Assembly (NCBI GenBank): GCA_017303455.1
Contig: JAFLBM010000004.1
Location: 173,899 to 237,898 of the forward strand
Reading direction: 5' to 3'
DNA: 64,000 nt
From: Chitinophagales bacterium
Lineage (GTDB): Bacteria; Bacteroidota; Bacteroidia; Chitinophagales; Chitinophagaceae
The notes beneath the pieces were generated by a model, which was not told the origin of the DNA, did no database searches, and worked only from the letters and a program-made list of their open reading frames with translations. Both the position numbers and the translations under genes were made by a program. Positions 15,738 to 34,052 of the stretch are shown piece by piece. Position 1 is the stretch's first letter. The number at the start of each line of letters is the position of its first letter.

Positions 15738-15745
15738 TTTTTATG

Positions 15746-15773: not shown

Positions 15774-15802
15774 CATTCTTAATCATTTCTAAATTTACGA
15801 TT

Positions 15803-16837: not shown

Positions 16838-16881
16838 TCATTTTTAAGGGGCATTGCAAAATGCCCCTTAAATTGATAAAA

Positions 16882-16931: not shown

Positions 16932-16986
16932 GGGTTTTTAGTACCTTTAGATAATTTTTTTAGTTACAGTTCCGAAATAAATAAAA

Positions 16987-18036: not shown

Positions 18037-18125
18037 CTTCTAAATAAAGCAATCTTTTTTTGGATTACTATTCTAAAGTAAAGGTTTAGTGTCAATTTTT
18101 CTTCATTAATTCCCCCACAAAGTTC

Positions 18126-18235
18126 GCCTTTTGGCTGCTGAAGCGGCCATGAAATTCCGGCATAAAGAAAACTGCTCCCACACTTTTTAAGATACTATTT
18201 ATTCCGTTGCTTCATTGCCTTTATTGCCAAAAGGC
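18126..18235. repeat. Spaced inverted repeat in the RadC leader
   Basis: GCCTTTTGGC (18126-18135) and its exact reverse complement GCCAAAAGGC (18226-18235) stand 90 bp apart in the 246-bp gap before radC. They could close a large leader structure; I see no gene in the gap. Confidence 0.4.
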
Positions 18236-18282
18236 AGTGACAGTTCTGTAATTAATTTTTAAAACAATTAAAAAGTTAAGTT

Positions 18283-18756
18283 ATGGAACAGTTAACAATG
18301 AAATTTCCGGAATGGACAAGAGTAGCTGAGGTGGAATTGGTTTACAAAACAAACGTAAAGCCGTCAGAAAGACCAAAGATTGGCAGTGTACAGGATTGTT
18401 ACAAACTGTTGAAGGAATTATGGAATGAAAACACCATTGAGATGCAGGAAGAATTTAAAGTAATGTTATTGAACAGAGGCAACAAAGTGATAGGTGTTTA
18501 TGAAGCATCTGCCGGTGGACTTACAGGAACTGTGGCAGACCCAAGATTGATACTGGCGGCTGCCATTAAATCATTGGCTGTAAGTATAGTGCTTTCTCAC
18601 AATCATCCGTCAGGCAATCTAAAACCAAGCAGAGCTGATGAAGAATTAACCCAAAAAATAAAGTGTGCCGCTGCTTACCATGATATAAGAGTAATAGACC
18701 ACATTATTATTACCAGCGAAGGGTATTATAGCTTTGCAAATGAGGGGCTGCTTTAA
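18283..18756 (+). CDS. radC: RadC-family JAB/MPN domain protein
   Basis: A 157-aa protein, shorter than chromosomal RadC because it lacks the N-terminal helix-hairpin-helix part. The metal site of the JAMM type is complete: LSHNHPSGNLKPSRAD, with HxH, the SG pair and the downstream Asp, followed by IIITSEGYYSFANEG. RadC proteins of mobile elements are thought to act on DNA or on ubiquitin-like targets; their biochemical role is unresolved. It belongs to the ssb-DUF932-RadC block typical of Bacteroidota conjugative elements. The stop overlaps a weak terminator. Confidence 0.92.
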   Translation: MEQLTMKFPEWTRVAEVELVYKTNVKPSERPKIGSVQDCYKLLKELWNENTIEMQEEFKVMLLNRGNKVIGVYEASAGGLTGTVADPRLILAAAIKSLAVSIVLSHNHPSGNLKPSRADEELTQKIKCAAAYHDIRVIDHIIITSEGYYSFANEGLL

Positions 18757-18767
18757 CCCCTTTTTTT
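18743..18767 (+). terminator. Weak terminator at the end of radC
   Basis: AGGGG and CCCCT form a short stem around the stop codon and are followed by a run of T residues. The stem is only five base pairs, so termination may be partial. Confidence 0.45.
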
Positions 18768-18865
18768 AAATTTAGCAATGGGCTTAAGATATGTAAATTG
18801 AAGGCGATGAACTATATTTACGCTTATAAAAAACCAGACTCACTTATTCCCAAAACCAACTAACT

Positions 18866-20704
18866 ATGGATGTTCAACCTCAAAATCAAAACATAGATAA
18901 ACTCTTTTCAAACACTACATTTTACATTGATTTTTATCAAAGACAATACAAATGGAATGATGAACCGGTGAAACGTTTACTTGATGATATTTTTTACAAA
19001 TTTAATGAGGAGTACAAAAAATTTCGGGAGCTAAGCCTTCCTCTGGACCAGACTGCAAGTAAGTATAGCTGGTATTATTTGAATACTTATGTAACTAATA
19101 ATGTTGATGGCAAATTATACATTGTGGACGGTCAGCAAAGACTAACCACTCTTACACTTTTGCTTATTAAACTAAGGCACCTTGCAAAAGATTTAAACTC
19201 TAAATTAGAAGGATGGATAAGCAGTAAAATTGTTGGTTTATCTGGCTATAAAACTGATTTTTGGATGAATCATGAAGCACATAAATCAGCAATGCAATCA
19301 CTTTATGATGGAATAGCAGAGGAAAATATTGATATTTCAACAGGTTTGACTGCACAAAATATGGTAAGTAATTACGGACTGATTGCTTCAAGGCTTGATT
19401 ATGAATTAACGGACTTACACAGGCTTGAGAGTTTTGTTTTCTATTATATGCACCGATTGGTATTGATAAACCTCAATGTTGAACAAACTGATGTTCCAAT
19501 GGTTTTCGAGGTGATAAATGACAGAGGTGTAAAACTTAAACCTTACGAAATCATCAAAGGGAAATTATTAGGTCAGATTTCAAAAGAAGAGTTAGATGGA
19601 TTGGCTTTAAATGAACTTTGGGAACAACAAGTTGGTTCAATAAACTCATTTAAAGAGGACGAAATTGACCAGTTTTTTACTTATTATCTCAAAGCAAAGT
19701 TAGCAGATACTATTGGCGAGGGCAGAAAGTATGACAGAGATTATCACCGTGTTATTTTCTCTGAAAACAAACTTAAATTAGACCATAATCCCACACAGGT
19801 AAAACATTTTCTGCTCAACGATTTCAAGTATTACACCAACCTTTACGCAAAAATTTATGCGTATTATAAAGATGCCGATTCAAACACAGGTTTTGAAAGT
19901 GTCTATTATAATAGTTTGACAGAGATGGATAATCAATTTCTACTAATCCTTTCTGCCTGTTCAATTAATGACCCACAAGAGGATGATAAAATAAAAGCAG
20001 TAGCATATGAATTAGACAGGTTATTTTGCCTTTTACAAATACAAAGAAGCTACGGAAGCAATGCCTTAGCAGTAGCTATTTATAAAATCAGCATAGAAAT
20101 CAGAAATAAAGATGTATCTCAAATCAGAGGAGCTTTTGATAAAACTCTAATGGAATTATTAACAGAGGCAAGAGGTGTAGAAGCCACCGCACCTCTGTCA
20201 TATGGTTTTTTTAAAGAAACAGGTATTGAGTTAGATAAAAGATTTAAGAGGTATTTCTTTGCAAGAATTGAGAAATTTATTGCAGATAATACCAAAATGA
20301 ATGTAAAGCATTCGCTTTACGATTTAGTTCAAAATACAGGGTCGGTAAATGGCTTTCATATCGAACACATCCTTGCTGATAATCAAGAAAACTTAGATTT
20401 ATTTGGCGGTGATGAAGATAAGTTCAAAAGCGAAAGAAACCGACTTGGCGGTTTATTGTTGTTAAAAGGGAAAGATAATATTTCCAGCAATAATGAGACG
20501 TATAAAAAGAAATTAAAAACCTACGCCAATACCCTTTATTGGAACGAAACTCTCCGTGAAGATACTTACACAAAAAAGCTGGATTTCTCAAATATGATGA
20601 CCACTTATAAATTGAACTTTAAACCGGTTGCAGATTTCGGGCAATCAGAATTGGAAGAACGGCACAAATTATTATTTGATATGGCTTCTTTTATCTGGAA
20701 ATAG
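18866..20704 (+). CDS. GmrSD-like DUF262/DUF1524 defence protein
   Basis: A 612-aa fusion. The N-terminal DUF262 domain has the ParB-like motif VDGQQRLTTL (DGQQR at residues 88-92) and FEVINDRGVKLKPYEIIKG, which in GmrS hydrolyses nucleotide. The C-terminal DUF1524 domain has an HNH-type site: FHIEHILADN with His498 and His501, then NRLGGLLLL and SSNNETYKKK. Fused GmrSD proteins are type IV restriction enzymes that cut DNA carrying modified bases such as glucosylated hydroxymethylcytosine. It stands alone, without a partner methyltransferase, as expected for this class. Target modification here is unknown. Confidence 0.9.
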   Translation: MDVQPQNQNIDKLFSNTTFYIDFYQRQYKWNDEPVKRLLDDIFYKFNEEYKKFRELSLPLDQTASKYSWYYLNTYVTNNVDGKLYIVDGQQRLTTLTLLLIKLRHLAKDLNSKLEGWISSKIVGLSGYKTDFWMNHEAHKSAMQSLYDGIAEENIDISTGLTAQNMVSNYGLIASRLDYELTDLHRLESFVFYYMHRLVLINLNVEQTDVPMVFEVINDRGVKLKPYEIIKGKLLGQISKEELDGLALNELWEQQVGSINSFKEDEIDQFFTYYLKAKLADTIGEGRKYDRDYHRVIFSENKLKLDHNPTQVKHFLLNDFKYYTNLYAKIYAYYKDADSNTGFESVYYNSLTEMDNQFLLILSACSINDPQEDDKIKAVAYELDRLFCLLQIQRSYGSNALAVAIYKISIEIRNKDVSQIRGAFDKTLMELLTEARGVEATAPLSYGFFKETGIELDKRFKRYFFARIEKFIADNTKMNVKHSLYDLVQNTGSVNGFHIEHILADNQENLDLFGGDEDKFKSERNRLGGLLLLKGKDNISSNNETYKKKLKTYANTLYWNETLREDTYTKKLDFSNMMTTYKLNFKPVADFGQSELEERHKLLFDMASFIWK

Positions 20705-21326: not shown

Positions 21327-21722
21327 ATGAAGAAGGTAGAAAGTGAAGTGAGGAGCAAAATGGTGGTTGTAAGGATGAATGAAACTGAAATAAATCAACT
21401 TACAAAGCTGAAAGGAAAAACTACCGAAAAAGATACCAGTGCTTACCTGAGGAAAGTAGCATTACAAAAGCCTGTTACTGTTAAGTACAGAAACGAAAGT
21501 GCCGATGATTTTTTGTTAGACATGCTGAACCTGAAAAAAGAACTCAATGCCATCGGCAACAATTTTAACCAGGCAGTACACAAATTGCACTTGCTTGATA
21601 AGATACCGGAGTTCAGGATTTGGGTACAGCAATATGATGGCTTGCAAAAGATGCTAATCAGCAAAGTGGAAGAAATAAAATTACGGATGAATCAACTGTA
21701 TGAGCAATGGTTGCAAAAATAA
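21327..21722 (+). CDS. MobC-like relaxosome accessory protein
   Basis: A 131-aa basic protein. The N-terminal 60 residues (KMVVVRMNETEINQLTKLKG, then SAYLRKVALQKP) have the ribbon-helix-helix pattern of MobC/MbeC accessory factors, and the C-terminal half is helical with the conserved ELNAIGNNFNQAVHKLH segment of this family. Such proteins bind oriT and help the relaxase open the DNA. It lies just downstream of the oriT-like repeats and overlaps the relaxase start by 16 bp, so both are made from the same message. Confidence 0.9.
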   Translation: MKKVESEVRSKMVVVRMNETEINQLTKLKGKTTEKDTSAYLRKVALQKPVTVKYRNESADDFLLDMLNLKKELNAIGNNFNQAVHKLHLLDKIPEFRIWVQQYDGLQKMLISKVEEIKLRMNQLYEQWLQK

Positions 21723-22978
21723 CCACACCGAAAAGTATTGAAGCAGCTTTGAACTATAATGAAAAGAAAGTTCAAAAGAGCAAAGCAGTTTGCTTACATG
21801 CCGCCAATTATCTCAAAGATGCAAAAGACATGAACTTTTATCAGAAACTGGCAGGTTTTGAAAGGCTGAATAGTTTGAATGAAAGAGCAACAACAAAAAC
21901 CCTGCATGTATCACTCAACTTTGACCCATCAGAAAAGCTGGCTGAAAGTAAGTTATTACAAATTGCATCTGCCTATATGGAAATGATTGGGTTTGGACAG
22001 CAGCCTTACCTCGTTTACAAACATGAAGATGCCGGGCATCCACACATTCACATTGTAAGCACTACTATTAAAGCAGATGGTAGCCGTATCAATACCCACA
22101 ACATCGGCAGAAACCAATCTGAAAAGGCAAGAAAGGAAATTGAGCAATTGTATGGCTTAGTAAAAGCAGAAAGGCAGCAGCAACTACCAAAGCCTGGCAT
22201 CAAACCGGTTGATGTTGAAAAAACCGTTTATGGAAAGTCGGAAACTAAACGCAGTATCTCAAATATTGTTGGAGCAGTTTACAGTCAGTACAAGTTTACT
22301 TCCTTACCTGAATTTAATGCGGCTTTAAAACAATTCAATGTAGTTGCGGACAGAGGTAAAGAAGAAGGCAGGATTTTTAAAAACCGTGGATTGGTTTATC
22401 GCATATTGGATTCAGCCGGAAATAAAGTAGGTGTACCTATCAAAGCAAGTTCTATCGGTTGCAAACCAATTTTAGCTAATCTTGAAAAGAAATTTACTGC
22501 TAATGAAACGGCAAAAGAATTTCTTAAATCATTTGTAAAAATCAAACTGGATGACTGCCTTTCACAATCGCCTTCTACAGTGAAAGAATTAACGGAGCAA
22601 TTGAAACAGAAAAATATTTACACTGTGCTTCGTCAAAATGCTGAAGGCAGGTTATACGGAATCACTTTTGTTGATAATCAAAACAAGGTTGTCTTTAATG
22701 GCAGTGATTTAGGTAAAGGTTACAGTGCTGCGGCCTTGCAAAGCAAGTTAGCTTCTGGAACTGAAAAATCACTTAGCAACGATGAAACGAAAGGTGGCCG
22801 TTCCAGTGGTTCTATTCAAAAAGAAATGTCCCAGCAAAAACAACATGCTAAAACAATGCCTCTCACAACAAAAACTGAAAGCCCATTAGATGTGTTGCTA
22901 TCTACCAAAGAGCAATACGATAACATACCCAACAGCCTGCTAAAAAAGAAACGAAAAAAGAAGAAACCAAATTTGTAA
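21707..22978 (+). CDS. Relaxase / mobilization nuclease (MOBP-type)
   Basis: A 423-aa relaxase. The N-terminal domain has the family features: KTLHVSLNFDPSEKL, then YKHEDAGHPHIHIVST with the metal-binding HxHxH-like triad (residues about 118-124), and a candidate catalytic Tyr near the N-terminus (ALNYNEKKV). It nicks one strand at oriT, stays covalently attached and is led to the secretion channel. The C-terminal 180 residues are Lys/Gln-rich and end in a very basic KKKRKKKK-type tail that may contact DNA or the coupling protein. It is 16 bp upstream of the coupling protein gene. Strong assignment. Confidence 0.93.
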   Translation: MVAKITTPKSIEAALNYNEKKVQKSKAVCLHAANYLKDAKDMNFYQKLAGFERLNSLNERATTKTLHVSLNFDPSEKLAESKLLQIASAYMEMIGFGQQPYLVYKHEDAGHPHIHIVSTTIKADGSRINTHNIGRNQSEKARKEIEQLYGLVKAERQQQLPKPGIKPVDVEKTVYGKSETKRSISNIVGAVYSQYKFTSLPEFNAALKQFNVVADRGKEEGRIFKNRGLVYRILDSAGNKVGVPIKASSIGCKPILANLEKKFTANETAKEFLKSFVKIKLDDCLSQSPSTVKELTEQLKQKNIYTVLRQNAEGRLYGITFVDNQNKVVFNGSDLGKGYSAAALQSKLASGTEKSLSNDETKGGRSSGSIQKEMSQQKQHAKTMPLTTKTESPLDVLLSTKEQYDNIPNSLLKKKRKKKKPNL

Positions 22979-22994
22979 AATGTAAACTGATGTT

Positions 22995-24956
22995 ATGTCA
23001 CACACAGGAGAAAATGAACAGGGGTTGCGGAAGATAGTTGACCTGACAAGATTTGCCAGCATCTTTATTTTGATGCTGCATTTTTATTATTACTGTTACG
23101 TTGCTTTTGAGCAGTGGGAAATTACAAGCACCATCACCGACAGGTTGATGAAAAATATTTCCAATACTGGTTTATTTCATAATCAGCTTACATCAAAACT
23201 TATGGCATTGGGGCTGCTGGTCATTTCATTATTTGGTGCACAGGGCAAAAAAGATGAAAAAATAAATTGGAGAAGTATTACTGCTTATTTGCTAATTGGC
23301 TTGCTGCTCTATTTTTCAAGCCAGCTTTATTTTAAACTACAGTACGATATACAAACAGTCGCCATAGTTTACATCACATCCACTGGCATTGGCTTTTTAC
23401 TTATACTTGCAGGTGGTAATTTACTCAGCCGTCTAATCCGTTACAATTTAGGTGACGATGTTTTCAATTCACTCAACGAAACCTTTCCGCAGGAAGAACG
23501 GTTAATCTCCAATGAATACTCCATAAATCTGCCTGCCCGGTATAACCTAAAAGGCAAGATTAGAAAAAGCTGGATAAATATCATCAACCCTTTTCGGGGC
23601 TTGTTGGTAATTGGCAGCCCCGGTGCCGGTAAGAGTTGGTTTGTTATTCAGCATGTCGTTAAACAGCATATTGAAAAAGGCTTTGCCATGTTTGTGTATG
23701 ATTTTAAGTATGATGATTTGAGCCGCATTGTTTACAACTGGCTGCAGCAAAATAAACACAACTATTCAGTAAAGCCATCTTTCTACGTTATCAATTTCGA
23801 TAACCTTTCTGTGTCTCACCGATGCAATCCGCTTGACCCAAACAGTATGAACGATATTACGGATGCCACCGAAAGTGCCAGAACAATTTTGTTGGGATTG
23901 AACAGGGAATGGATTAACAAGCAGGGAGATTTCTTTGTAGAATCACCCATCAATTTTGTTACTGCTGTTATCTGGTTCCTGCGAAAATATGCCGATGGAA
24001 AATATTGCACCCTGCCACATGTAATAGAACTGATGCAGGCAGAGTATGATGAACTTTTTCCGGTACTTAACACACAACCGGAAATTGAAGTGCTGGTAAA
24101 TCCATTCATCACTGCTTATCAAAATGATGCGATGGAACAATTAGAAGGTCAGGTAGCCTCTGCAAAAATTGGCATGGCAAGATTAGCAGCGCCGCAACTC
24201 TATTGGGTTTTATCAGGCAATGATTTTACATTAGACATTAACAATCCCAAGCATCCCAAAATAGTTTGTGTCGGTAACAATCCGGAGAAGCAACAAATCT
24301 ATGGGGCAGTTTTATCACTTTATGTTTCAAGATTAGTACGGCAGGTAAACAAAAAAGGAATGCAAAAATGCAGTTTGGTGTTTGATGAATTTCCTACCAT
24401 TTATTTCAACAATATTGACAGCCTGATTGCTACAGCGAGAAGCAACAAAGTTGCCACTACATTAGCCATGCAGGATTTTAGTCAGCTTAAAAAAGATTAT
24501 GGCCGTGAACAAGCGGATGTGATTGTAAACATTACAGGCAACATCATCAGCGGCCAGGTTATGGGAGAAACCAGTAAGCTGCTTAGTGAACGTTTCGGAA
24601 AAATAATGCAGGACAGGCAGAGTGTTTCTATTAACCGTACTGATACTTCTATCAGTCATAGTAAACAATTGGATGCTGCCATACCCTCCAGTAAAATTGC
24701 TGCCCTTTCTTCCGGTGAGTTTGTTGGTATGGTTGCCGACGACCCGTTAGAGAAAATAAAACTTAAAATGTTTCATTCGGAAATTATTAACGACCATGAA
24801 AAGCTGAATGCAGAAGTGAGCAACTACAGGGATATTCCTGCGGTATCAAATGTTACCCAACAGCAAGTGCTGGATAATTACTACCAGGTGAAGATGGATA
24901 TTAAGAGGCTGATTGGGGAGGAAGTGGGGAGGTTGAAGGCGGAGAAAGAAACTTGA
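22995..24956 (+). CDS. Type IV coupling protein (VirD4/TraG family)
   Basis: A 653-aa membrane ATPase. Four hydrophobic segments in the first 160 residues anchor it; the ATPase domain has Walker A GSPGAGKS near residue 213 and Walker B LVFDEFPTIYF near 460, followed by the typical ATARSNKVATTLAMQDFSQL segment (given here by its ends ATARSN and DFSQL). It links the relaxosome to a type IV secretion channel and pumps DNA. It is the MobC/TraG-like coupling protein usual in Bacteroidota elements, encoded right after the relaxase. No secretion channel genes other than an orphan traE are in this window. Confidence 0.93.
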   Translation: MSHTGENEQGLRKIVDLTRFASIFILMLHFYYYCYVAFEQWEITSTITDRLMKNISNTGLFHNQLTSKLMALGLLVISLFGAQGKKDEKINWRSITAYLLIGLLLYFSSQLYFKLQYDIQTVAIVYITSTGIGFLLILAGGNLLSRLIRYNLGDDVFNSLNETFPQEERLISNEYSINLPARYNLKGKIRKSWINIINPFRGLLVIGSPGAGKSWFVIQHVVKQHIEKGFAMFVYDFKYDDLSRIVYNWLQQNKHNYSVKPSFYVINFDNLSVSHRCNPLDPNSMNDITDATESARTILLGLNREWINKQGDFFVESPINFVTAVIWFLRKYADGKYCTLPHVIELMQAEYDELFPVLNTQPEIEVLVNPFITAYQNDAMEQLEGQVASAKIGMARLAAPQLYWVLSGNDFTLDINNPKHPKIVCVGNNPEKQQIYGAVLSLYVSRLVRQVNKKGMQKCSLVFDEFPTIYFNNIDSLIATARSNKVATTLAMQDFSQLKKDYGREQADVIVNITGNIISGQVMGETSKLLSERFGKIMQDRQSVSINRTDTSISHSKQLDAAIPSSKIAALSSGEFVGMVADDPLEKIKLKMFHSEIINDHEKLNAEVSNYRDIPAVSNVTQQQVLDNYYQVKMDIKRLIGEEVGRLKAEKET

Positions 24957-25092: not shown

Positions 25093-26841
25093 ATGGATAT
25101 TATTAAACTTACTCTCAATTTTATTTCCACAACAGATAAGTCGCTTTTTCTTACTGGCAAAGCTGGTACCGGCAAAACAACATTTCTAAACGCACTTCGT
25201 CAAAATATCTATAAAAAATGTATAGTTGTTGCACCCACCGGCATTGCAGCTATCAATGCAAATGGAGTTACCATTCACTCGTTTTTTAACCTGCCACTTG
25301 GCCCTTTTCTGCCAGGAAAAAGCCAACTGGGAACCTCTATAGACAGTAATAAAAAGAAGCTAATTAAAGAACTTGAATTACTGATTATTGATGAAGTATC
25401 AATGTTGAGAGCAGATACATTAGATGCTATTGATTATATTTTAAGGACAACGAGAAAAAAGGAAGATGTGCCATTTGGCGATGTTCAGGTTCTGTTTGTG
25501 GGAGACCTTTGTCAACTTTCACCAATCATAGCAGATGAAGAATGGAGACAGATAAAACAATATTACAGGGGAATTAATTTCTTAAACGCCCTATCAATCA
25601 AAATAGCACCACCCGTATATCTCGAACTTACACAAGTTTATCGCCAGACAGACGATAATTTTATTCAATTACTTAATCAAGTCCGTACGGGTAATTGTTC
25701 CCAAAGAGAAGTTGATTTAATAAACACTTGTTACAAGCCCGATGTTGTAAATGAGAAAAGTCCCGTTATTCTTACAACTCATAATGCCAAAGTTGACTCA
25801 ATAAATGAAAATGGGCTTAGAATTTTAGCAACTCAGGAGGAATTTCTATGGGCGGAGGTTGATGGTGACTTTGATGAAGTATCTTTTCCTACTGAAAACT
25901 GTTTAAAATTAAAAATTGGGGCAAGAATAATGTTGTTGCGTAATGACAAAGGAAAAGATAAAAAATATTACAACGGAAAGACAGGCCTGGTAAAAGCTAT
26001 TGTGCCTGAAGAATTATCTATATTGCTTGATGATGGTGCCACAATACAAATTCAAAAAGAAGTTTGGTCAAAAATAAAATATGTATTTAACGAATCAACA
26101 AATTCTGTAAACCCTGAAGTCGTAGGTACGTTCAGGCAGTTCCCTGTTAGGTTAGCCTGGGCAATTACCATTCATAAGAGCCAGGGATTAACGTTTGAAA
26201 ATGCAGTTTTGGATTTAGAAGATGTTTTTGTTCCGGGACAGGCTTATGTTGCTTTAAGCCGATTAAAATCTTTACAGGGACTATCTTTAAGTTCTAAGGT
26301 TAATCTTCAAATTATGAATAACTCAGCTTTTGCTGCCGGTGCTTTGCCAGATTCATTATCGGAGGATAAACTGATTGAAATTCTTTCAAATGAACAGGCA
26401 TTATTTGCAGAACGAAAACTATGTGATTATTTTAGCTGGGTAGAGTTATCTGCATTTTTTTCTCAAAATGGTAGTTTGCTAAATAACTATGCTGAAATTG
26501 CGGACACACTCGGGAGAATTAGCCACTGTACTACCACATCGCTTAAATTTACAGAAGAAATAAGCAGCATCTGCAAACTTAACCAAGAGGGTAAATACCA
26601 ACTACTCGAAGCAAGAATTTCAGCAGCATCCTCCTATTATCTGGAAGAAATTGACAATAGGATTATGCCAGTAGTAAGAGCAGAGTATTCTAAAACAAAA
26701 GGCAGTATTAATTTTAAGTTGTTATTCAGGTTTAATGCTGAATTAAAGAAGCTGCTTGAGCAAAAGCTAAGTGATTTTCTTGCTGCTGAAAAATTTGCCA
26801 GAGATTTTCTTTCCAATATTATTGGCAACCATGAGGCATAG
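25093..26841 (+). CDS. Pif1-like SF1B DNA helicase
   Basis: A 582-aa helicase. Seen: Walker A GKAGTGKTT (residues 22-30), PTGIAA motif Ia, Walker B LIIDEVSML near 100, GDLCQLSP, VYRQ, and the C-terminal motifs TIHKSQGLTFENA and YVALSRLKSLQGL. This is the Pif1/RecD2 5'-3' helicase set. The last 150 residues form a helical C-terminal extension of the kind seen in Bacteroidota Pif1-like proteins. It lies directly upstream of the Argonaute operon in the same direction, but has its own possible promoter and a 150-bp gap with the XRE promoter after it, so functional linkage is only suggested. No nuclease domain is fused to it. Confidence 0.93.
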   Translation: MDIIKLTLNFISTTDKSLFLTGKAGTGKTTFLNALRQNIYKKCIVVAPTGIAAINANGVTIHSFFNLPLGPFLPGKSQLGTSIDSNKKKLIKELELLIIDEVSMLRADTLDAIDYILRTTRKKEDVPFGDVQVLFVGDLCQLSPIIADEEWRQIKQYYRGINFLNALSIKIAPPVYLELTQVYRQTDDNFIQLLNQVRTGNCSQREVDLINTCYKPDVVNEKSPVILTTHNAKVDSINENGLRILATQEEFLWAEVDGDFDEVSFPTENCLKLKIGARIMLLRNDKGKDKKYYNGKTGLVKAIVPEELSILLDDGATIQIQKEVWSKIKYVFNESTNSVNPEVVGTFRQFPVRLAWAITIHKSQGLTFENAVLDLEDVFVPGQAYVALSRLKSLQGLSLSSKVNLQIMNNSAFAAGALPDSLSEDKLIEILSNEQALFAERKLCDYFSWVELSAFFSQNGSLLNNYAEIADTLGRISHCTTTSLKFTEEISSICKLNQEGKYQLLEARISAASSYYLEEIDNRIMPVVRAEYSKTKGSINFKLLFRFNAELKKLLEQKLSDFLAAEKFARDFLSNIIGNHEA

Positions 26842-26924
26842 CTTTCCTAAAATAATTACAATCAGTTAATTATCAATTATTTAAGTCGAACAGAGTAGGA
26901 AAATCAGTAAGCGCTTAAAAATAA

Positions 26925-26943
26925 TGCTTGCAATATCAAGCAA
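26925..26943 (+). promoter_or_regulatory. Operator-like repeat 1 of the Argonaute operon
   Basis: TGCTTGCAATATCAAGCAA, a near-palindrome (GCTTG...CAAGC) overlapping the -33 TTG of the operon promoter. A second copy lies 32 bp downstream. Likely binding site of the XRE regulator encoded next. Confidence 0.7.
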
Positions 26944-26958
26944 CAATCTGTATATTTG
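26928..26958 (+). promoter_or_regulatory. Promoter of the XRE-Cas4-Argonaute operon
   Basis: TTG at 26928-26930, 20 bp, then TATATTTG at 26951-26958: both boxes of the Bacteroidota primary sigma factor at the right spacing. Transcription should begin near 26964, giving a leader of about 30 nt before the ATG at 26995. This supports 26995 over an upstream TTG at 26956 as the true start of the regulator gene. Confidence 0.75.
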
Positions 26959-26975
26959 CTTGCAATATTTAGCAA
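26957..26975 (+). promoter_or_regulatory. Operator-like repeat 2 of the Argonaute operon
   Basis: TGCTTGCAATATTTAGCAA, identical to repeat 1 in 17 of 19 positions. It covers the end of the -7 box and the expected start site. The centre-to-centre distance of 32 bp is three helical turns, so two dimers would sit on the same DNA face. Confidence 0.7.
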
Positions 26976-26994
26976 ACCGATAAATTTAAATTGT

Positions 26995-27339
26995 ATGCAA
27001 AATTATGGCGACTACTTCAGGGCTTTGAGGGAAGCAAAAAATATGACCCTGAGAGAAGTAGAGAAACAGGCCGATGTTTCGAATGCTTATTTAAGTCAAC
27101 TCGAATCAGGAAAAGTAAAACAGCCTTCTCCGTTAACGCTTCACAAGCTTTCTGAAATATATGGTGTAAGCTATGATTTGCTTATGGAGAAAGTAGGCTA
27201 TCCAGTTACCGAACGTAAAGAAAAGGTGAAAAGTGAATCCGGTAAAATATCTATCGCTTACAGGGTGGGTGATATTTCAGATGATGAAGAGTTGGAATTA
27301 CTTAATTATTTAAAGTTTATCAGAAATCGGAAAAAATGA
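26995..27339 (+). CDS. XRE-family HTH regulator of the Argonaute operon
   Basis: A 114-aa protein with an N-terminal Cro/C1-type helix-turn-helix: YFRALREAKNMTLREVEKQ, then VSNAYLSQLESGKVK and LTLHKLSEIYGV. The C-terminal 45 residues are a short acidic tail with a helical end (ELELLNYLKFIRNRKK), as in small repressors paired with ImmA-type proteases. I start at the ATG at 26995, after the promoter. The gene is preceded by two operator-like repeats over its own promoter, which suggests autorepression. It overlaps the Cas4-like gene by four bases (ATGA), so regulator and nuclease are translationally coupled. Confidence 0.93.
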   Translation: MQNYGDYFRALREAKNMTLREVEKQADVSNAYLSQLESGKVKQPSPLTLHKLSEIYGVSYDLLMEKVGYPVTERKEKVKSESGKISIAYRVGDISDDEELELLNYLKFIRNRKK

Positions 27340-28328
27340 TTTCAGTTACCGGATATAAGCAATTTGTTCAGTGTGAAAGGCTGTGGTTCTACAAGAATAT
27401 TGTAGCGGATAGCCGTGTGAAGAATGATTTGTTTCGACGGGAAGTAACACTTCTTTCAAAGTTGCAGACAGTTCATGCCTGGCGGGGTACAATAGTGGAT
27501 AACATACTGAGTAAATTTCTCGTACTTGCAATCAACAATAGATATCCTGTAAAAAAAGATTACTTTATTGAGCAGGCAATGGCCATGTTTGATACACAAT
27601 TAGAGTATGCTACTTCTCAAAAGTATCGGGAGCCGGATGCTGTACTTACAAATAATCCAGCTTTTAATGCTTTTATTGAATGTGAACTTGGTGAGGGCAT
27701 TTCTGACGAGGAAATCAATCATGCAAAAGATGATATTGTTACTGCCCTTACAAATATTCTTGATGATAAAGACTTTATTGATTACCTGAAATCTTCCAAA
27801 TATGTAATTAGCCAGCGGCCATTGATTTATAATTTTGACCGGTTTAGTGTAAAAGCGATTCCCGATTTTATTGCTTTTTTTGATGATAGTCCACCACATA
27901 TTTTTGACTGGAAAGTACATACATACGGAACGGCTTCATACGATGAACAATTAATTGCCTATGCAGTGGCTCTTTATAAAGTAGCTACCATAAAGCCTCA
28001 TGCAGATTTTCTTCCCAATGTTTCCAAATGGAAAATCCATGATTATAAACTGACCGAATATCAATTGCTTCATAAAGACCGAATAAAACGGGATTATGAT
28101 GTAACAGATGAAAAAATAGAAGCTTTTGGAGAGAATATGTCTTCTGCAATTATCAGGATGCATATGGCTGGTGCTAACAAAAAGTACAATCAATTGAAAG
28201 CAGACGATTTTTCTACAACAAATTATATTGAACATTGTCAAAAATGTTCATTTCAGAAAATATGTAAAACAAATAGTTATGAAACAACCAGTAAATACAC
28301 AGTACGAGACGAACATTTTCAAAATTGA
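27336..28328 (+). CDS. Cas4-like PD-(D/E)XK nuclease with predicted Fe-S cluster
   Basis: A 330-aa protein of the RecB/Cas4 nuclease superfamily. Seen in order: Cys13 (FVQCERLWFY), His47 in HAWRG, Asp177 (AIPDFIAFF), the core Asp191-Trp-Lys193 (FDWKV), and the QLxxYA motif at Gln205. Three cysteines close to the C-terminus (CQKCSFQKIC, Cys301, 304, 310) together with Cys13 make the four-Cys arrangement that holds an iron-sulfur cluster in Cas4 and AddB. Family enzymes are exonucleases or nick DNA ends. Its 3' end overlaps the Argonaute start by about 50 bases. It could make guides, trim ends or act as the effector cutting DNA; no cas1/cas2 or CRISPR array is present. Confidence 0.9.
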   Translation: MISVTGYKQFVQCERLWFYKNIVADSRVKNDLFRREVTLLSKLQTVHAWRGTIVDNILSKFLVLAINNRYPVKKDYFIEQAMAMFDTQLEYATSQKYREPDAVLTNNPAFNAFIECELGEGISDEEINHAKDDIVTALTNILDDKDFIDYLKSSKYVISQRPLIYNFDRFSVKAIPDFIAFFDDSPPHIFDWKVHTYGTASYDEQLIAYAVALYKVATIKPHADFLPNVSKWKIHDYKLTEYQLLHKDRIKRDYDVTDEKIEAFGENMSSAIIRMHMAGANKKYNQLKADDFSTTNYIEHCQKCSFQKICKTNSYETTSKYTVRDEHFQN

Positions 28329-30726
28329 AAATTGCAGTCAACTATCTGCTGATTATTTTTTGTATGAAATAATTGGATTGAAAGAGTCAAAAGCTGATGA
28401 TGATGCTAATGACGATTTTGACATTAATATTCAATACATAATCAAAAGCCTGGCTTATAAGCTCAGGCATCCGGTTACTGTTGTTACTCAAGATAAAAAG
28501 CCTTACCTCGTTATAAGGGCCGATGAAGATATTACAAACAGAGTACCCGATGAATACACTGTAAAACACGGTGATGTTGTCTATTTTAAAAAGACTGACA
28601 GTCCTATAAAGCTGGATTTTGTCAATTATGATGAGGAAACTAAAAAAGTAATTCTAAGGTTTTTGCAATTCGATAGTCAATCGGAACTCACAAAGAATGA
28701 AGGTCTTTGGCAACCCGGCTCCGGCGATGGATTTTTCAATGTAATTGCCAAAGAGCAAAGAAATCCGGTAGGTATATACACCGGTTTTTATTCAAGGGTA
28801 ACTGAATTACCAACTAAAGGATTTGGTTTTGAGATTGACATTACAAAGAAATATATATCGCTTTATCCCGTTAATGCCCGTTTGTCCAGAAACGAGTTCA
28901 AATCGCAAAGAGTAAGTAAATCACATTATATGTATCAGTACGGCGTTACCAGATACGAAATACGCCCAATAGAGCTTAGTGACTTAACAGTTTCTACCTA
29001 TAAGTTTACACGGCAAACTGACGGCAAAGTGGTAACACTGCTACAGGATATTCAGGACAAATTTGGTCCATCTATGCCGCCAGAGGTAGCAAACTTACCA
29101 GATAATGCATCAGTGTTGTTATACAGAACAAATGATGGACAGGAAAGAGCAGCAGTGGCAGCACTTTGCTATAAGGTATATGATACTGAAGATGCCGTAG
29201 TGCAAAAAATACATCACAAATCTATTATTAATCCTTTTCCAAGAAGAAGACTGATTCGAATAATTCATAATAATTTTTTCAGAAGGCTGATGTATGGTAA
29301 AATCAAATTGCAGGTAGGCACTCAACCAATAACTGTTGAAAAGAAGAAATTTCAGACTCCTGACTTTTTATTTGGAAATGATGTGTCATTATCGGTACGG
29401 AATTCTGAAAACTCGATTCATACATTTCTGGAAGACCTTGGTAAAAGACGAAAGGGATTGTTATTTGATGATAGCGCAGGTTTTTATACAAACGCAATAT
29501 TTGAAACACAGTATTACCTTGTCCCCCAGACTGTTTACAACATGTTTGGTAATGAGAAACATTTTCTTGGTCATTTAAGGTCGCAGGTAAATAAAACTCA
29601 TCCTACCGAAGATGGATGGAATCCCATTGTAATTACTTATGACAACCGCAATAAGAGGAATGCTGTGGCAATTGGATTTGAAATTTTACAGAAGATGGAA
29701 GAAACCATTAAGAAGAATAGCTGCGGGTATGCCCTCATTATGCTTCCATCAGGAGTAGAAAAAGAACATCGCCAGCATGATGATTTAGCCGCATTAGTAG
29801 TATCGGAGTGCCTCGAAGAATATAACATTACGGCAAGCATCATGCACAGTGATACTTTGGAAGAATGTTTCTTATATACCGAAAACAATGGGCAGAAGGG
29901 CTACGTTATCAGGAGAGAGTTGAAAGGCAAATACGATGGCTATGTTAAAGGTGTTGCAATTAATCAGGTGCTTCTTAACAATGAAAGATGGCCTTATGTT
30001 TTAAACACCCCGTTACATGCAGATTTGACCATTGGCATTGACGTAAAAAAACACATCGCTGGGTTTACCTTTATTGACAAGTATTCTAAGAATATACTTA
30101 CCAAATTCGATAAGTCAAAAAATAAGGAGCGTTTATCTGAGGGACAGATTATTAAAATGCTTGTCAGATACATTACTGTCCAGAAGAATAATACAACAAA
30201 CCTGTTAAAAAAGATAGTTATCCATCGGGATGGGAAGCTATTTTCAGTTGAACGGAATGGAATATTTAAAGCTATTCAATTGTTGAAAGAAAAAGGCATA
30301 CTCCCGGACGATGTATCTGTAAATATTGTTGAGCTACCTAAACATTCAATACTTCAATTAAGACTTTTTGAAGTGCTTAAAGAATATGATGTATTGTATA
30401 ATGAAGAAGACGATGGCTATGTGTTAAATCCAGAGATTGGCTCTTGGATAAAGATAAATAATCGGGAAGCTTTTCTTTGTACAACAGGCAGAGAGTTCAA
30501 ACATAACGGAAGCTCTAATCCATTGTATATTAAATACCCAATTGGGAATATGGATATAGAGCATATTATAGAAGACATTTATTACCTGTCATGCCTGGCT
30601 TATACAAAACCAGATGATTGCTCCAGATACCCATTAACTATTAAGATAACCGACCGAAGAATTAATATACTGGGCAGTGATTTTGATTTGGAAGCACTTG
30701 ATGTTCTTAAAACCATTCATTCATAA
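28279..30726 (+). CDS. Long prokaryotic Argonaute, catalytic tetrad apparently intact
   Basis: An 815-aa protein counted from ATG 28279 (MKQPVNTQYETN); an upstream ATG at 28228 would add 17 residues but lies deeper in the Cas4-like gene. The layout fits N, PAZ (about 240-345), L2 with TPDFLFGND, MID (about 430-560) and PIWI (about 580-815). The PIWI tetrad reads Asp588 (IGIDV), Glu621 as glutamate finger (RLSEGQ), Asp651 (HRDGK) and Asp792 (ITDRR); the first three spacings match known Argonautes (33 and 30 residues). So guided target cleavage is expected. In MID, the usual Y..K..Q pocket for a 5'-phosphate guide is not evident. It is co-transcribed with XRE, Cas4-like and protease genes. Clade and guide type cannot be decided here. 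Confidence 0.93.
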   Translation: MKQPVNTQYETNIFKIENCSQLSADYFLYEIIGLKESKADDDANDDFDINIQYIIKSLAYKLRHPVTVVTQDKKPYLVIRADEDITNRVPDEYTVKHGDVVYFKKTDSPIKLDFVNYDEETKKVILRFLQFDSQSELTKNEGLWQPGSGDGFFNVIAKEQRNPVGIYTGFYSRVTELPTKGFGFEIDITKKYISLYPVNARLSRNEFKSQRVSKSHYMYQYGVTRYEIRPIELSDLTVSTYKFTRQTDGKVVTLLQDIQDKFGPSMPPEVANLPDNASVLLYRTNDGQERAAVAALCYKVYDTEDAVVQKIHHKSIINPFPRRRLIRIIHNNFFRRLMYGKIKLQVGTQPITVEKKKFQTPDFLFGNDVSLSVRNSENSIHTFLEDLGKRRKGLLFDDSAGFYTNAIFETQYYLVPQTVYNMFGNEKHFLGHLRSQVNKTHPTEDGWNPIVITYDNRNKRNAVAIGFEILQKMEETIKKNSCGYALIMLPSGVEKEHRQHDDLAALVVSECLEEYNITASIMHSDTLEECFLYTENNGQKGYVIRRELKGKYDGYVKGVAINQVLLNNERWPYVLNTPLHADLTIGIDVKKHIAGFTFIDKYSKNILTKFDKSKNKERLSEGQIIKMLVRYITVQKNNTTNLLKKIVIHRDGKLFSVERNGIFKAIQLLKEKGILPDDVSVNIVELPKHSILQLRLFEVLKEYDVLYNEEDDGYVLNPEIGSWIKINNREAFLCTTGREFKHNGSSNPLYIKYPIGNMDIEHIIEDIYYLSCLAYTKPDDCSRYPLTIKITDRRINILGSDFDLEALDVLKTIHS

Positions 30727-30742
30727 CGCTAAACATACAACT

Positions 30743-31108
30743 ATGAGCAATATTGGTATAAATACAAATACTTTTCGCCTTACCAGTAAATACCTGGATA
30801 TACTAAATGATTTTATTGTGAAGGCCAAAATACATCCGGAAATTACAGATGCACGGCAGGAGCAACTAATTGATTTTGTGTCTAAACTTACTGATGTAAA
30901 TAATGCTGAACCTCAGTTTCAAATGTTGTCAAGTATAATTGAACGGGAACTACGAAATTTCAACAAAAAACCTGATGTTTTCTTAAACACATTAATTCAG
31001 GATATTAAGAACAAAGACACAGAAACTGTTATACCTAAAATTGAATTAATTACAGAAGCCTTAGATGTTGAAAACAGTGAAGTTTTAGCAAAGATAATTG
31101 GCGATTAA
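30743..31108 (+). CDS. Small helical protein of the Argonaute operon
   Basis: A 121-aa acidic protein starting at ATG 30743, 16 bp after the Argonaute stop; an upstream ATG at 30677 lies inside the Argonaute gene and is unlikely. Sequence is almost wholly helical by composition (KYLDILNDFIVKAKIHPE; ARQEQLIDFVSKLTD; IPKIELITEALDVEN), with no membrane segment and no catalytic motif. It lies four bases before the metalloprotease start, so it may be a partner, inhibitor or substrate of one of these proteins. No family recognised. Confidence 0.75.
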   Translation: MSNIGINTNTFRLTSKYLDILNDFIVKAKIHPEITDARQEQLIDFVSKLTDVNNAEPQFQMLSSIIERELRNFNKKPDVFLNTLIQDIKNKDTETVIPKIELITEALDVENSEVLAKIIGD

Positions 31109-31112
31109 AACT

Positions 31113-32246
31113 ATGAGAAGTTATATTAACGGAGCAATCAAAGAAGCGATAGCTAAGGGCTGGGTATTAATGTCAAAAATACCCGGTGCAAGAGAACTTG
31201 GAGTATATTTCCCATCGTTAGCAACAATAGCAAATAGGGAGATAGAGCGAATAATAGCTGAACTTGATTATTTGTATAATGATGATGATTATAACGACCC
31301 AAAGAGTATAAGACAAAAGTTTTCGAAATTTAAGCAGCTTTCTGGCCGGTTGTCTGATATTGAAAATGTGGTAATAGCCGCCATGAGCAGGAAAGCTGCT
31401 GACGATGAGTTTGTAAATAAACTTGTATATCAAATTTGTCAGGAAATCAATTATCCGTTACAAACACCAGTAGCGTCATGCTTGTCTCAGAAGTATTATC
31501 ACATTTATCCGGACTACAATCTTATTTGCATACCTCTTTTGGAATCAGAATTTGTTCTGCATATCCCTGATATATATCATGAATTGGGTCATCCGTTGTT
31601 ATATTTAGAAAACCCAAAGCTGGATGCAATGCAGAATAATCTGGGTTTGTTCAATGTTGAAGTAAGAAAGTATTTTGATGATGAAATAAAAAGACGGGAA
31701 CTTAATAAAACAAACCAGTCAGAATTTGATTCTATTCATGTCTGGAAAGAATCATGGCTTGAAAAGTGGTCAGTTGAACTGTTCTGTGATTTATTTGCAA
31801 CTTTTACTTTAGGCCCTGCATTTATATGGTCAAACATTCATATGTGCACCAAAATGTCCTGGGAAGTGTATAAAATTCCAACATTTCAAAAATCATCGCA
31901 TCCGCCTGGAGAAGCAAGAATGAAAGCAATTTTGCATGGTTTGGAATTAGTGGGTTTTAAAGAAGTTAAAAAAGAAATTCAGGCTAAATGGGAGGAATTT
32001 AAAGTAATCGTTGACCATAAAAAGCCCACTGGATTTTCAGTAGCTGTGCCTGACAAATTACTTAAATTAGCAGCAGAATTTTGCCTTGTTGGTACAAAAC
32101 AAATTGGCTGTGACATTATTTCTCCTGAATCAAAAGGTAAGGTATGTGAGCTTTTAAATAATTCATGGAAACAATTCTGGATAGACCCTGAAAATTTCTA
32201 TGAATGGGAAAAGGAGACAGTTGCACAATTCAAGGCAACGTTGTAA
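31113..32246 (+). CDS. Zinc metalloprotease (HELGH) of the Argonaute operon
   Basis: A 377-aa protein starting at ATG 31113; a TTG at 31098 overlaps the upstream gene and is less likely. The gluzincin-like site is complete: HELGHP at residues 156-161, a second Glu in VELFCDLFAT (Glu222, Asp226) and a later SSHPPGEARM (His263, Arg269), the His-Pro...Arg element seen in M48-like proteases. There is no signal peptide, so it acts in the cytoplasm. N-terminal 100 residues are helical; C-terminal 80 residues unrecognised. In an operon with an XRE repressor it could be an ImmA-like antirepressor, or an effector that cuts host proteins when the Argonaute recognises invaders. Both are inference. Confidence 0.85.
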   Translation: MRSYINGAIKEAIAKGWVLMSKIPGARELGVYFPSLATIANREIERIIAELDYLYNDDDYNDPKSIRQKFSKFKQLSGRLSDIENVVIAAMSRKAADDEFVNKLVYQICQEINYPLQTPVASCLSQKYYHIYPDYNLICIPLLESEFVLHIPDIYHELGHPLLYLENPKLDAMQNNLGLFNVEVRKYFDDEIKRRELNKTNQSEFDSIHVWKESWLEKWSVELFCDLFATFTLGPAFIWSNIHMCTKMSWEVYKIPTFQKSSHPPGEARMKAILHGLELVGFKEVKKEIQAKWEEFKVIVDHKKPTGFSVAVPDKLLKLAAEFCLVGTKQIGCDIISPESKGKVCELLNNSWKQFWIDPENFYEWEKETVAQFKATL

Positions 32247-32309
32247 AGAAATGAAGCTTTGCATTGAAAAGTAAACTTGAGTATTTTTTGATTAATAAAT
32301 TTTGACTTT

Positions 32310-32582
32310 ATGTCTGATAAAATAAATGCGGCAAAAGAAGTGATAACCGCTTTTTTTGATAATGCAGAAGGCGATTATTGGAAAACTCTTGATGAGATAT
32401 CATCACAAACAAAAATTGACCCCAATATAGTTGTAAATGTAATAACCAACTCCGGGGAGTTTGTTAGGTCTTCTTATAGAAAAAAAGCAGGTGAGCCATT
32501 ATTTACGTCGAGGCGTTTGTTTAGAAGTAAAGCTCCAATAATGGATAAGATAATTGGAACATTTAAGAACCGAATAGATTAA
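32310..32582 (+). CDS. Small winged-helix-like protein
   Basis: A 90-aa protein with a helix-rich first half (EVITAFFDNAEG, TLDEISSQTKIDPNIVVNVI) and a basic beta-hairpin-like second half (VRSSYRKKAGEPLFTSRRLFRSK), a pattern compatible with a winged helix that binds DNA. It is 63 bp after the protease gene and 5 bp before a small membrane protein gene. It may be a continuation of the Argonaute operon or a separate two-gene module. Function unproven. Confidence 0.65.
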   Translation: MSDKINAAKEVITAFFDNAEGDYWKTLDEISSQTKIDPNIVVNVITNSGEFVRSSYRKKAGEPLFTSRRLFRSKAPIMDKIIGTFKNRID

Positions 32583-32587
32583 TTACT

Positions 32588-32896
32588 ATGTCAATACCAG
32601 AACCAGTTTTTATTTCCGGGCTTGGGGGTGCTGCTGTTCAAATTCTTTATTTAATTGATGGTATGAATGCACCAAAAGACAGACGTCCTGATTTTAAATC
32701 AGCTCTGTATTATTTAGCCATTATCTTCAACATTGCATTGAGTGTAATTTTAGGGTACGTTTATTTTGACGATGCCCAGAAGCTTAACAAGATTGTTTAT
32801 TTTCATATTGGTCTATCAGCGCCTTTAATATTACGGACTTTGGCCACTACACTCCCTGAAGTCATAAGGGCTTCTAATTCCAATAAAGAGGAATAG
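32588..32896 (+). CDS. Small multi-pass membrane protein
   Basis: A 102-aa protein with three hydrophobic stretches: near residues 8-25, YYLAIIFNIALSVILGYVYF in the middle, and IGLSAPLILRTLATTLP toward the end, followed by a charged tail (RASNSNKEE). It has no signal peptide and is too small for a known transporter. Co-transcribed with the winged-helix-like protein 5 bp upstream. A membrane protein as the last gene of a defence operon often disrupts the membrane when activated; here that is only a hypothesis. Its stop is 5 bp from the oppositely oriented DUF1016 gene. Confidence 0.65.
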   Translation: MSIPEPVFISGLGGAAVQILYLIDGMNAPKDRRPDFKSALYYLAIIFNIALSVILGYVYFDDAQKLNKIVYFHIGLSAPLILRTLATTLPEVIRASNSNKEE

Positions 32897-32900
32897 GTAA

Positions 32901-34001
32901 TTATTTAATAAGATTAGCGATGGCATTTGGGTTAGGTAATAAATTTTTTATACTTTCTGGAGTTTGCTTCGAGGTTTTATAGGTAGCTACACCCATTGCC
33001 TTATCATAGCTTTTAATTGCAAACTCAACAACTGTATTGTTTTTCTCTTTGCAAAGCACAATACCAATGCTGCTATTTTCCTGCTGCAGTTTTACTTTTT
33101 CATCCAGTACATTCAGGTAAAAATTTAGTTGCCCGGCATCGGCTGGTTTAAATTTACCTTTCTTTAATTCAAAAGCCACCAGGCATTGCAGGTGCCGGTT
33201 AAAAAAGAGCAGGTCAATAAAAAATTCATCACCATCCACCTCAAGCCGGTATTGGTTACCTATAAAACAAAAGCCTTTACCCATTTGCAAAATAAAGTTG
33301 CGGATGTTTAATACCACCTGTTGTTCAATATGGCGTTCATCATCCAGTTCATCACCGGCAATAAAATCCAGCAGGTATTCATCTTTAAAAACTTTCAGGG
33401 CAGAGGGCTTCAAGCTTTCATTCAAAGTGCCATCAAAATTGTTGGGTAGCTTACCTTCCTTTCCAAACAGGTTATTCTCAATATGATGCTCCAGCACCGT
33501 CAGCGACCAAAAATTGACAGCCGCAGACTGGATATAGAAAATCCGGGCTTCCCAAGCCTTTATTTTGGTGATAATTGTAAAATGATGAGAGAAGCTGATA
33601 CCTGTAAATGCCTCGTAAAATGCTTTATTTTCAATCAGGTTCGACAATGTCGAACTAATTGAAAAACCGTCTCTGATACCAGCCAGCCTAATTTGGTTCG
33701 ACGCTGTCGAACCAATTACCAAATGGGGAGCATAAGCCTCAGCAAACAGCCTTATTTTTTTGAGATTACCCGCCGAAAATCCTTTTAGCCCCGGCAGCTC
33801 TTTTTGCAGGTCTGCCGAAATTTGGTCAAGTACTTTGGCACCCCATTTCTGAGCCTTTATCTTCTCCGAAATCATCAACCCGGTATTAAAGTATAACATC
33901 AGTTGCTCCCGGTTGGCCAGCCTGGCCGCCACATACCGGCTTTGTACAATTTGCCTTTTTATAGACTGTATAAATACAATATAGCTTTTATCAATTTTCA
34001 T
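32901..34001 (-). CDS. DUF1016 / YhcG-type PD-(D/E)XK nuclease protein
   Basis: A 366-aa protein; start chosen at ATG 34001 (MKIDKSYIVF). The N-terminal half has the YhcG/DUF1016 pattern (LMLYFNTGLMISEKIK, QISADLQKELPGLKGFS), the C-terminal half is a PD-(D/E)XK nuclease: FFIDLLFF supplies the Asp and AFELKKG the Glu-x-Lys, followed by QLNFYLNVLD. These proteins are widespread in mobile elements; they are structurally related to the Rpn recombination nucleases, but function is poorly known. It is unusual in carrying two palindromes inside its coding sequence (33639-33655 and 33693-33715). It is convergent with the Argonaute operon. Confidence 0.9.
   Translation of the reverse strand: MKIDKSYIVFIQSIKRQIVQSRYVAARLANREQLMLYFNTGLMISEKIKAQKWGAKVLDQISADLQKELPGLKGFSAGNLKKIRLFAEAYAPHLVIGSTASNQIRLAGIRDGFSISSTLSNLIENKAFYEAFTGISFSHHFTIITKIKAWEARIFYIQSAAVNFWSLTVLEHHIENNLFGKEGKLPNNFDGTLNESLKPSALKVFKDEYLLDFIAGDELDDERHIEQQVVLNIRNFILQMGKGFCFIGNQYRLEVDGDEFFIDLLFFNRHLQCLVAFELKKGKFKPADAGQLNFYLNVLDEKVKLQQENSSIGIVLCKEKNNTVVEFAIKSYDKAMGVATYKTSKQTPESIKNLLPNPNAIANLIK
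33639..33655. repeat. Coding palindrome 1 in the DUF1016 gene
   Basis: GTTCGACA-A-TGTCGAAC, a perfect 17-bp odd palindrome within the reading frame. A second related one lies 54 bp away. Both encode Ser-Thr-x-Ser-Asn stretches, so the DNA symmetry may be what is selected or what was inserted. Confidence 0.8.
33693..33715. repeat. Coding palindrome 2 in the DUF1016 gene
   Basis: TTGGTTCGAC-GCT-GTCGAACCAA, 10-bp arms around a 3-bp centre, sharing the core GTTCGAC/GTCGAAC with palindrome 1. Confidence 0.8.
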
Positions 34002-34052
34002 ACTTTTCAAGTTTATAATTTTAAACTGCCCAAAATCACACAAGAAAAGAGA

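Follow-up and report, generated by a model that had tools for sequence, protein, structure and literature searches.

A recurring bacterial operon of a Cas4-like nuclease, a long Argonaute, a small helical protein and a predicted metalloprotease

In a 64,000-nucleotide stretch of DNA from a Chitinophagales bacterium (contig JAFLBM010000004.1 of assembly GCA_017303455.1), here called the window, seven co-directional genes make up a compact putative operon at positions 26995-32896 of the forward strand. They encode an XRE-family regulator, a Cas4-like nuclease, a long Argonaute, a small helical protein (SML), a predicted metalloprotease (PROT) and two further small proteins (WHTH and MEM), and a pair of palindromes precedes the first gene (Table 1). 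The junctions are, in order, a 4-nt overlap, a 50-nt overlap and gaps of 16, 4, 63 and 5 nt. A preliminary description of this DNA had reported seven co-directional genes with junctions of these sizes, in agreement with the sequence, but had named the protease ahead of the small helical gene; the order is the reverse, as the 121-aa gene precedes the one for the HELGH protease. It had also taken all seven genes as one system, which held for the Argonaute, Cas4-like nuclease and protease as a compact unit and not for the last two genes as part of its core.

Recurrence of the operon

Loci were chosen by PROT. An alignment of its relatives gave a single nine-residue PROT pattern, with which 67 loci were collected at one genome per species; relatives without the pattern are missed by this census. 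Neighbourhoods were read by iterated profiles on six-frame translations, and the 84 PROT sequences, the window included, fell into 73 clusters at 95% or greater PROT identity. An Argonaute gene lies within 2 kb of PROT and on the same strand in 66 of the 73 clusters. The XRE regulator, Cas4-like nuclease, Argonaute, SML and PROT are all found in 42 clusters (the flanks are complete in 40, and 2 lie close to a contig end), and another 16 have a sister architecture with a sigma factor, a helix-turn-helix (HTH) protein, nuclease, Argonaute, SML and PROT. The remaining eight of the 66 Argonaute-bearing clusters are truncated or one hit short; L105 was counted short only since the script took the nearest XRE hit, which is on the opposite strand, and its XRE gene is present. 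SML was recognised in 70 of the 73 clusters, between either the Argonaute or the regulator and PROT. By record titles, the protease and its partner stand beside Argonautes in at least 10 phyla.

The association is also seen from the Argonaute side, where the check covers Bacteroidota. The searches for Argonaute and PROT took in 396 genomes from the order and 395 from the phylum, with some genomes in both sets. PROT is adjacent to all 15 long Argonautes recovered by the Argonaute queries. Short PIWI hits were present as well (open frames of 403-507 aa, E 2.5e-4 to 8.5e-4) and are outside this count; no genome with short PIWI hits only is among the PROT-positive genomes of either search. An Argonaute was found in 10 of the 11 PROT-positive genomes of the order and in 7 of 9 in the phylum set, the exceptions being G130 and, in the phylum set, also G410, which has a weak 61-residue match. 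The recurring unit is the XRE regulator, Cas4-like nuclease, Argonaute, SML and PROT, and the recurrence of these five genes is more than chance. When recurrence beside Argonautes elsewhere was run as a test of the preliminary description, the small protein and the protease passed.

That pair follows PROT in 7 of the 73 clusters, of both architectures (the window, L043, L044, L047-L049 and L101). It is quite improbable that all seven genes are one system in which the pair provides a regulator and a membrane effector, even if the pair shares the strand at gaps of 63 and 5 nt and occurs behind PROT in XRE-type and sigma-type loci alike, requiring two changes on the PROT tree. The pair was not found in the other 66 clusters, and eight further genomes of the order carry WHTH relatives, all eight being negative in the PROT search of that order; in six of them, MEM is again beside WHTH. 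Other genes take up the slot 3' of PROT elsewhere, namely those for a subtilase in L045, an HD hydrolase in L050 and an ApeA-HEPN protein in L103. We therefore treat WHTH and MEM as a separable accessory cassette outside the core.

Table 1. Features of the operon, its upstream region and the variable slot behind PROT.
Feature	Location	Position	Strand	Match or remark
XRE-family regulator, 114 aa	window	26995..27339	+	Pfam HTH_3 E 4e-14; PADLOC HTH_VI E 3.5e-11
Cas4-like PD-(D/E)XK nuclease, four Cys, 330 aa	window	27336..28328	+	PADLOC Aga_Cas4-like_Nuc E 1.9e-115; Pfam PDDEXK_1 E 3e-9
Long Argonaute, PliAgo group, 815 aa	window	28279..30726	+	PADLOC pAgo_II 1018 bits; PliAgo structures E 6e-105
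SML, small five-helix protein, 121 aa	window	30743..31108	+	family-less; model pLDDT 91
PROT, predicted HELGH metalloprotease, M48-like motif layout, 377 aa	window	31113..32246	+
WHTH, small protein, 90 aa, accessory cassette	window	32310..32582	+	winged-helix is the label of the preliminary description; no family match
MEM, small membrane protein, 102 aa, WHTH partner, accessory	window	32588..32896	+	hydrophobic stretches
Predicted operator copy 1, palindrome 5' of the XRE gene, ATGCTTGCAATATCAAGCAA	window	26924..26943	+
-7 element, Bacteroidota-type, TATATTTGC	window	26951..26959	+	overlaps the start of operator copy 2
Predicted operator copy 2, TTGCTTGCAATATTTAGCAA	window	26956..26975	+	32 bp past copy 1
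Pif1-like helicase, 582 aa, upstream, possibly associated	window	25093..26841	+	Pfam PIF1 E 2e-31
Subtilase-type protease, variable slot behind PROT	L045	10171-11382		Pfam
Subtilase-type protease, variable slot behind PROT	L046	10161-11357		first residues only
HD hydrolase, variable slot behind PROT	L050	10788-12245
ApeA-HEPN protein, variable slot behind PROT	L103	10037-11374

A third clade (L040 and L118) encodes an XRE regulator, a Cas4-like nuclease, a diverged Argonaute and a diverged PROT, with an unrecognised 149-aa gene in the place of SML. PROT relatives also occur on five plasmid records. Plasmid pRUNSL03 of Runella slithyformis has an HTH gene, a PD-(D/E)XK nuclease gene and a long Argonaute-sized gene, with a small gene and PROT after them; the last three are annotated as hypothetical, and this PROT is 51% identical to that of the window. 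Since RslAgo comes from R. slithyformis (PMC9360449), the pRUNSL03 operon is likely its locus. Two plasmids, of Runella and Spirosoma, carry the operon once in the HTH type and once in the sigma type, with genes for multiubiquitin, ThiF and DUF6527 proteins near it (L119 9450-11629 and L121 1-2410).

Around the window operon, genes for a NikA/MobC-like protein, a MobA/VirD2-type relaxase and a VirD4/TraG-type coupling protein lie at 21327-24956, bearing out the earlier proposal of a mobilizable setting with other defence genes. Farther upstream, at 15743-20704, are a DUF932 protein, an HNH nuclease and a GmrSD-type restriction protein, and directly downstream (32901-34043, reverse strand) a YhcG/DUF1016 PD-(D/E)XK nuclease, so that the surroundings are rich in defence genes. 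The Pif1-like helicase is a frequent neighbour in Bacteroidota; a Pif1-like hit lies within 7 kb of PROT, on either strand, in 21 of the 73 clusters, two of them doubtful. The helicase, the palindrome pair at 26924-26975, the sigma-factor sister architecture and loci without an Argonaute are features beyond the preliminary description.

Proteins of the unit

The best solved relatives of the window Argonaute are 7r8f to 7r8k (E 6e-105), the structures of the PliAgo paper (PMC9360449). The DEDD tetrad that the preliminary description had noted lies at D588/E617/D651/D792 and is kept in 66 of 66 aligned rows. H523 and Y555 align with H498 and Y530 of the PliAgo MID pocket, and this His and Tyr are both present in all 48 XRE-type Argonautes; the His is found in none of the 16 sigma-type ones. 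PliAgo Arg467 and Ser501, also of MID, align with G492 and T526, and in the PliAgo paper absolute conservation within the group is claimed for the MID His and Tyr only (PMC9360449). According to that paper, PliAgo, RslAgo, PnyAgo and HpeAgo are DNA-guided RNA-cutting Argonautes (D-R pAgos), with the cut of the PliAgo group between target positions 9' and 10'; in both the PliAgo and the PnyAgo group a nuclease of distant kinship to Cas4 lies ahead of the Argonaute, and the regulator partner is an HTH protein in the former and a sigma-70-type factor in the latter (PMC9360449). In the window, a Cas4-like PD-(D/E)XK nuclease and an HTH regulator lie upstream of the Argonaute, as in the PliAgo group. 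Judged by these sequence features the window Argonaute is of the published PliAgo-type class, from which we infer that it cuts RNA. In one locus (L074 5242-8627) the Argonaute reading frame is split in two pieces.

The nuclease has D191-W-K193 and C13/C301/C304/C310, the DWK and four Cys given in the preliminary description, together with D177; D177, D191, K193 and the four Cys are kept in 61-62 of 63 rows. By analogy, the four Cys may bind an Fe-S cluster. As the NCBIfam cas4 equivalog TIGR00372 scores 16.8 bits, below its cut-off of 65, we name the nuclease Cas4-like only. That such nucleases occur near long Argonautes was already known, as earlier stated, since they are published as neighbours of D-R pAgos (PMC9360449).

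PROT carries H156-E157-x-x-H160 and E222. As HExxH is present in 71 of 71 PROT rows and E222 in 70 of 70, PROT appears to have been kept as an enzyme; one row (L034, the second half of a split locus) was left out of the residue-conservation counts. The layout of HExxH, ExxxD about 65 residues later and then HP-x4-R is what we take to be the M48 motif. PROT matched no Pfam family at E 0.1, no NCBIfam M48 model and nothing usable in PADLOC; Pfam and Protein Data Bank (PDB) searches gave no sequence match between PROT and the M48 (Ste24/HtpX) or minigluzincin proteases, and its fold match to ZMPSTE24 was not above background. For SML no convincing family was found in Pfam, NCBIfam or PADLOC. In L092 (419-2764), a short contig, PROT continues into a fused segment of about 400 residues, in which a second HExxH-like motif can be made out by eye and for which there was no Pfam hit; the fusion adjoins an apparent integrase start.

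Regulation and a possible role of the protease

Of 50 loci, 44 have a palindrome of the form TGCT-N7..12-AGCA ahead of the XRE gene, against a mean of 0.52 and a maximum of 3 in base-shuffled regions; the N10 form alone likewise gives 44 of 50, and the palindrome is present across many phyla. In the loci that we grouped as Bacteroidota and kin, the two copies are 32 bp apart in all 18 two-copy loci, and TAnnTTTGCT, a promoter element that continues into the palindrome, is upstream of XRE in 20 of 21 loci (shuffles: mean 0.11, maximum 2); its TAnnTTTG part is presumably the Bacteroidota-type -7 promoter consensus. TTGACA-N14..18-TAnnnT lies over the palindrome in 17 of the 27 other loci and in none of 300 shuffles, and four other-phylum loci have two palindrome copies 18-20 bp apart. 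The third clade has a palindrome of its own before XRE, GAGTTGACTAACAACTC, the same in both loci. Such palindromes over a promoter suggest that XRE represses its own operon. The sole exact match of TTGCTTGNNANNNTTAGCAA in its own genome is operator copy 2, and so the regulator looks local; at two mismatches there are 16 further genome sites versus 11 in a reversed control. The sigma-type loci have a different upstream motif, GTAACC...GCA-like, in 17 of 17 (shuffles: mean 0.08, maximum 2), and the second gene of these loci, the sigma partner of about 200 aa, includes an XRE-like HTH according to hhalign (probability 82, E 1e-5).

Tentatively, we favour a reading in which the protease may cut the operon's own regulator and so switch on a presumed guide-making nuclease and a predicted RNA-cutting Argonaute against an invader. 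XRE would bind the palindromes and hold the operon off until PROT, helped by SML, responds to a trigger, which may be single-stranded DNA as it is for PprI and CapP. The target of PROT would then be XRE in the XRE-type loci and the HTH-bearing sigma partner in the sister architecture. With the operon more strongly expressed, DNA guides would come from the nuclease and invader transcripts would be cut by the Argonaute, presumably in defence against phages or plasmids. What the sequences show is a recurring gene order, near-invariant active-site residues in each of the three enzymes and, before XRE in many phyla, palindromes that overlie the promoter. There is precedent in PprI-DdrO and CapP-CapH, in which single-stranded DNA triggers a metalloprotease that cuts a transcription repressor (PMC10904395).

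Loci without an Argonaute bear on this proposal. L055 and L081 have XRE-SML-PROT only, L086/L087 has these three genes plus a 109-aa Cas4 fragment, and L096 has the same three on a contig ending in PROT. L041, from G130, encodes a sigma factor, an HTH protein, a 136-aa protein, SML and PROT. The cis motif is kept in all five (L055, L081, L086 for L086/L087, L096 and L041). In L092 an Argonaute is likewise not seen, but its contig begins just before SML. On the PROT tree, built without two short PROT sequences (L033 and L096), five changes account for the Argonaute-free state when L092 is counted, and so the losses look independent. Because regulator, SML and PROT were kept in each loss, we prefer a regulator-protease circuit with Cas4-Argonaute as its payload. 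In L041 the 136-aa protein (6824-7234) fills the place of Cas4 and Argonaute and is GIY-YIG-like by eye, with no Pfam hit. In L055 (7987-10513), XRE-SML-PROT is flanked by two copies of an exact 49-bp direct repeat taken from close to the 3' end of the gene upstream, an arrangement that resembles insertion of all three genes in one block.

Several observations weigh against cleavage of the regulator by PROT. The PADLOC capH hit of the XRE regulator (E 6e-10 over residues 5-112) may reflect a likeness common to HTH proteins; HTH_VI scores better. PROT has no Pfam match to ImmA/IrrE or any other family, and the CapP protease model was unmatched in the Pfam and PADLOC searches; the parallel with CapP-CapH would thus be functional, not genealogical. 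Outside the third clade, even the relaxed palindrome is missing from 4 of the 48 regions ahead of XRE (L057, L064, L085 and L095), and within the window a count of sites that allows up to two mismatches does not exceed chance (4 sites, a number reached by 8 of 100 shuffles). The motif patterns were written after sight of the sequences, and base shuffles ignore the kinship of loci. The Argonaute-free loci are few and mostly metagenome-assembled, and could be decaying remnants. Finally, across the 40 XRE-type loci with all five proteins, the partial correlation of tree distances is 0.64 for Argonaute-PROT, a value of the sort that long, well-resolved proteins favour, versus 0.29 for XRE-PROT and 0.14 for SML-PROT; it is 0.45 for XRE-SML and 0.43 for Cas4-Argonaute.

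Since PROT lies outside the CapP/PprI family and its correlation with the Argonaute is the highest, a protease gated by the Argonaute stays a serious rival. A guide-loaded Argonaute meeting invader RNA would activate SML-PROT, which would cleave host or invader proteins or the sigma partner and so stop growth or signal, as the Craspase protease cuts RpoE-bound Csx30 after binding of non-self RNA (PMC9729208). The adjacency of Argonaute and PROT, seen in 66 of 73 clusters and at 15 of 15 long Argonautes, the correlation just given and the repetition in sigma-type loci of a layout with RNA-cutting effector, protease and sigma factor all favour this possibility, which we nevertheless consider less likely than not to hold given that L055, L081, L086 and L041, with both flanks, and L096, at a contig end, keep regulator, SML and PROT in the absence of an Argonaute. 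Moreover, the Pfam, NCBIfam and PADLOC searches gave none of the seven window proteins a match to gRAMP or TPR-CHAT. It is conceivable, if doubtful, that the operon is an independently evolved Argonaute counterpart of Craspase, in which a DNA-guided, RNA-sensing Argonaute would act through a small helical adaptor on a dedicated zinc protease, and the protease would alarm an in-operon repressor or sigma factor.

The loci with XRE-SML-PROT alone, L055 with its flanking 49-bp repeat and L081, also fit a toxin-antitoxin-like or addiction pair, PROT-SML, which under XRE control would stabilise a mobile element and leave Cas4-Argonaute as separate cargo; the plasmid-borne PROT relatives and the mobilizable neighbourhood of the window operon fit this too. 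We regard such a pair as unlikely, as the near-constant place behind the Argonaute, which extends across the three main PROT clades, and the correlated tree distances exceed what cargo would lead one to expect. Constant co-occurrence and gene order would in addition be expected if PROT matured or recycled proteins of its own system, for example by trimming the Argonaute or the Cas4-like nuclease with SML as adaptor. This is very improbable, since RslAgo, PliAgo, PnyAgo and HpeAgo were active when purified from E. coli as cloned Argonaute genes (PMC9360449) and PROT outlives Argonaute loss.

Comparison with known systems

The Argonaute is of a known class, while its conserved protease, small partner and promoter switch appear to be undescribed. 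The word protease is absent from the main text of PMC9360449, and protease and peptidase are both absent from that of the survey PMC6299218; no link between an Argonaute and a protease was found by title or abstract opening in the open-access literature searched. As PMC9360449 states that each D-R pAgo group has the same operon composition, a published figure may draw the SML and PROT genes unnamed. The natural role of DNA-guided RNA-cutting Argonautes is left open in that paper (PMC9360449). A conserved protease, partner and promoter switch would make D-R pAgo biology a testable circuit, raising the questions of what senses the invader, what the protease targets and whether RNA recognition is coupled to proteolysis as in type III-E CRISPR.

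With the PliAgo group the window operon shares the Argonaute group, the DEDD tetrad, the MID His and Tyr, an upstream Cas4-related PD-(D/E)XK nuclease and an HTH regulator; it differs in its small helical protein, protease, operator and Argonaute-free variants, none of which is mentioned in the main text of PMC9360449. The PnyAgo group (PnyAgo and HpeAgo) has the sigma architecture, whose loci here end in the same nuclease-Argonaute-SML-PROT tail, and is set apart by a sigma-70-like factor, an HTH-bearing regulator of about 200 aa and another upstream motif. The M48 (Ste24/HtpX) and minigluzincin proteases share with PROT the motif layout. PprI/IrrE-DdrO and CapP-CapH also pair a repressor with a metalloprotease, and derepression by cutting of the repressor is the parallel that we propose; the window protease, however, is unmatched and is encoded four genes downstream, behind the Argonaute. 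Craspase (type III-E CRISPR gRAMP/TPR-CHAT, Csx30 and RpoE) likewise brings together a guided RNA cutter, a protease and, as in the sister group, a sigma factor in one locus, but it uses a CRISPR effector and a caspase-like protease where the window operon would use a DNA-guided Argonaute and a metalloprotease.

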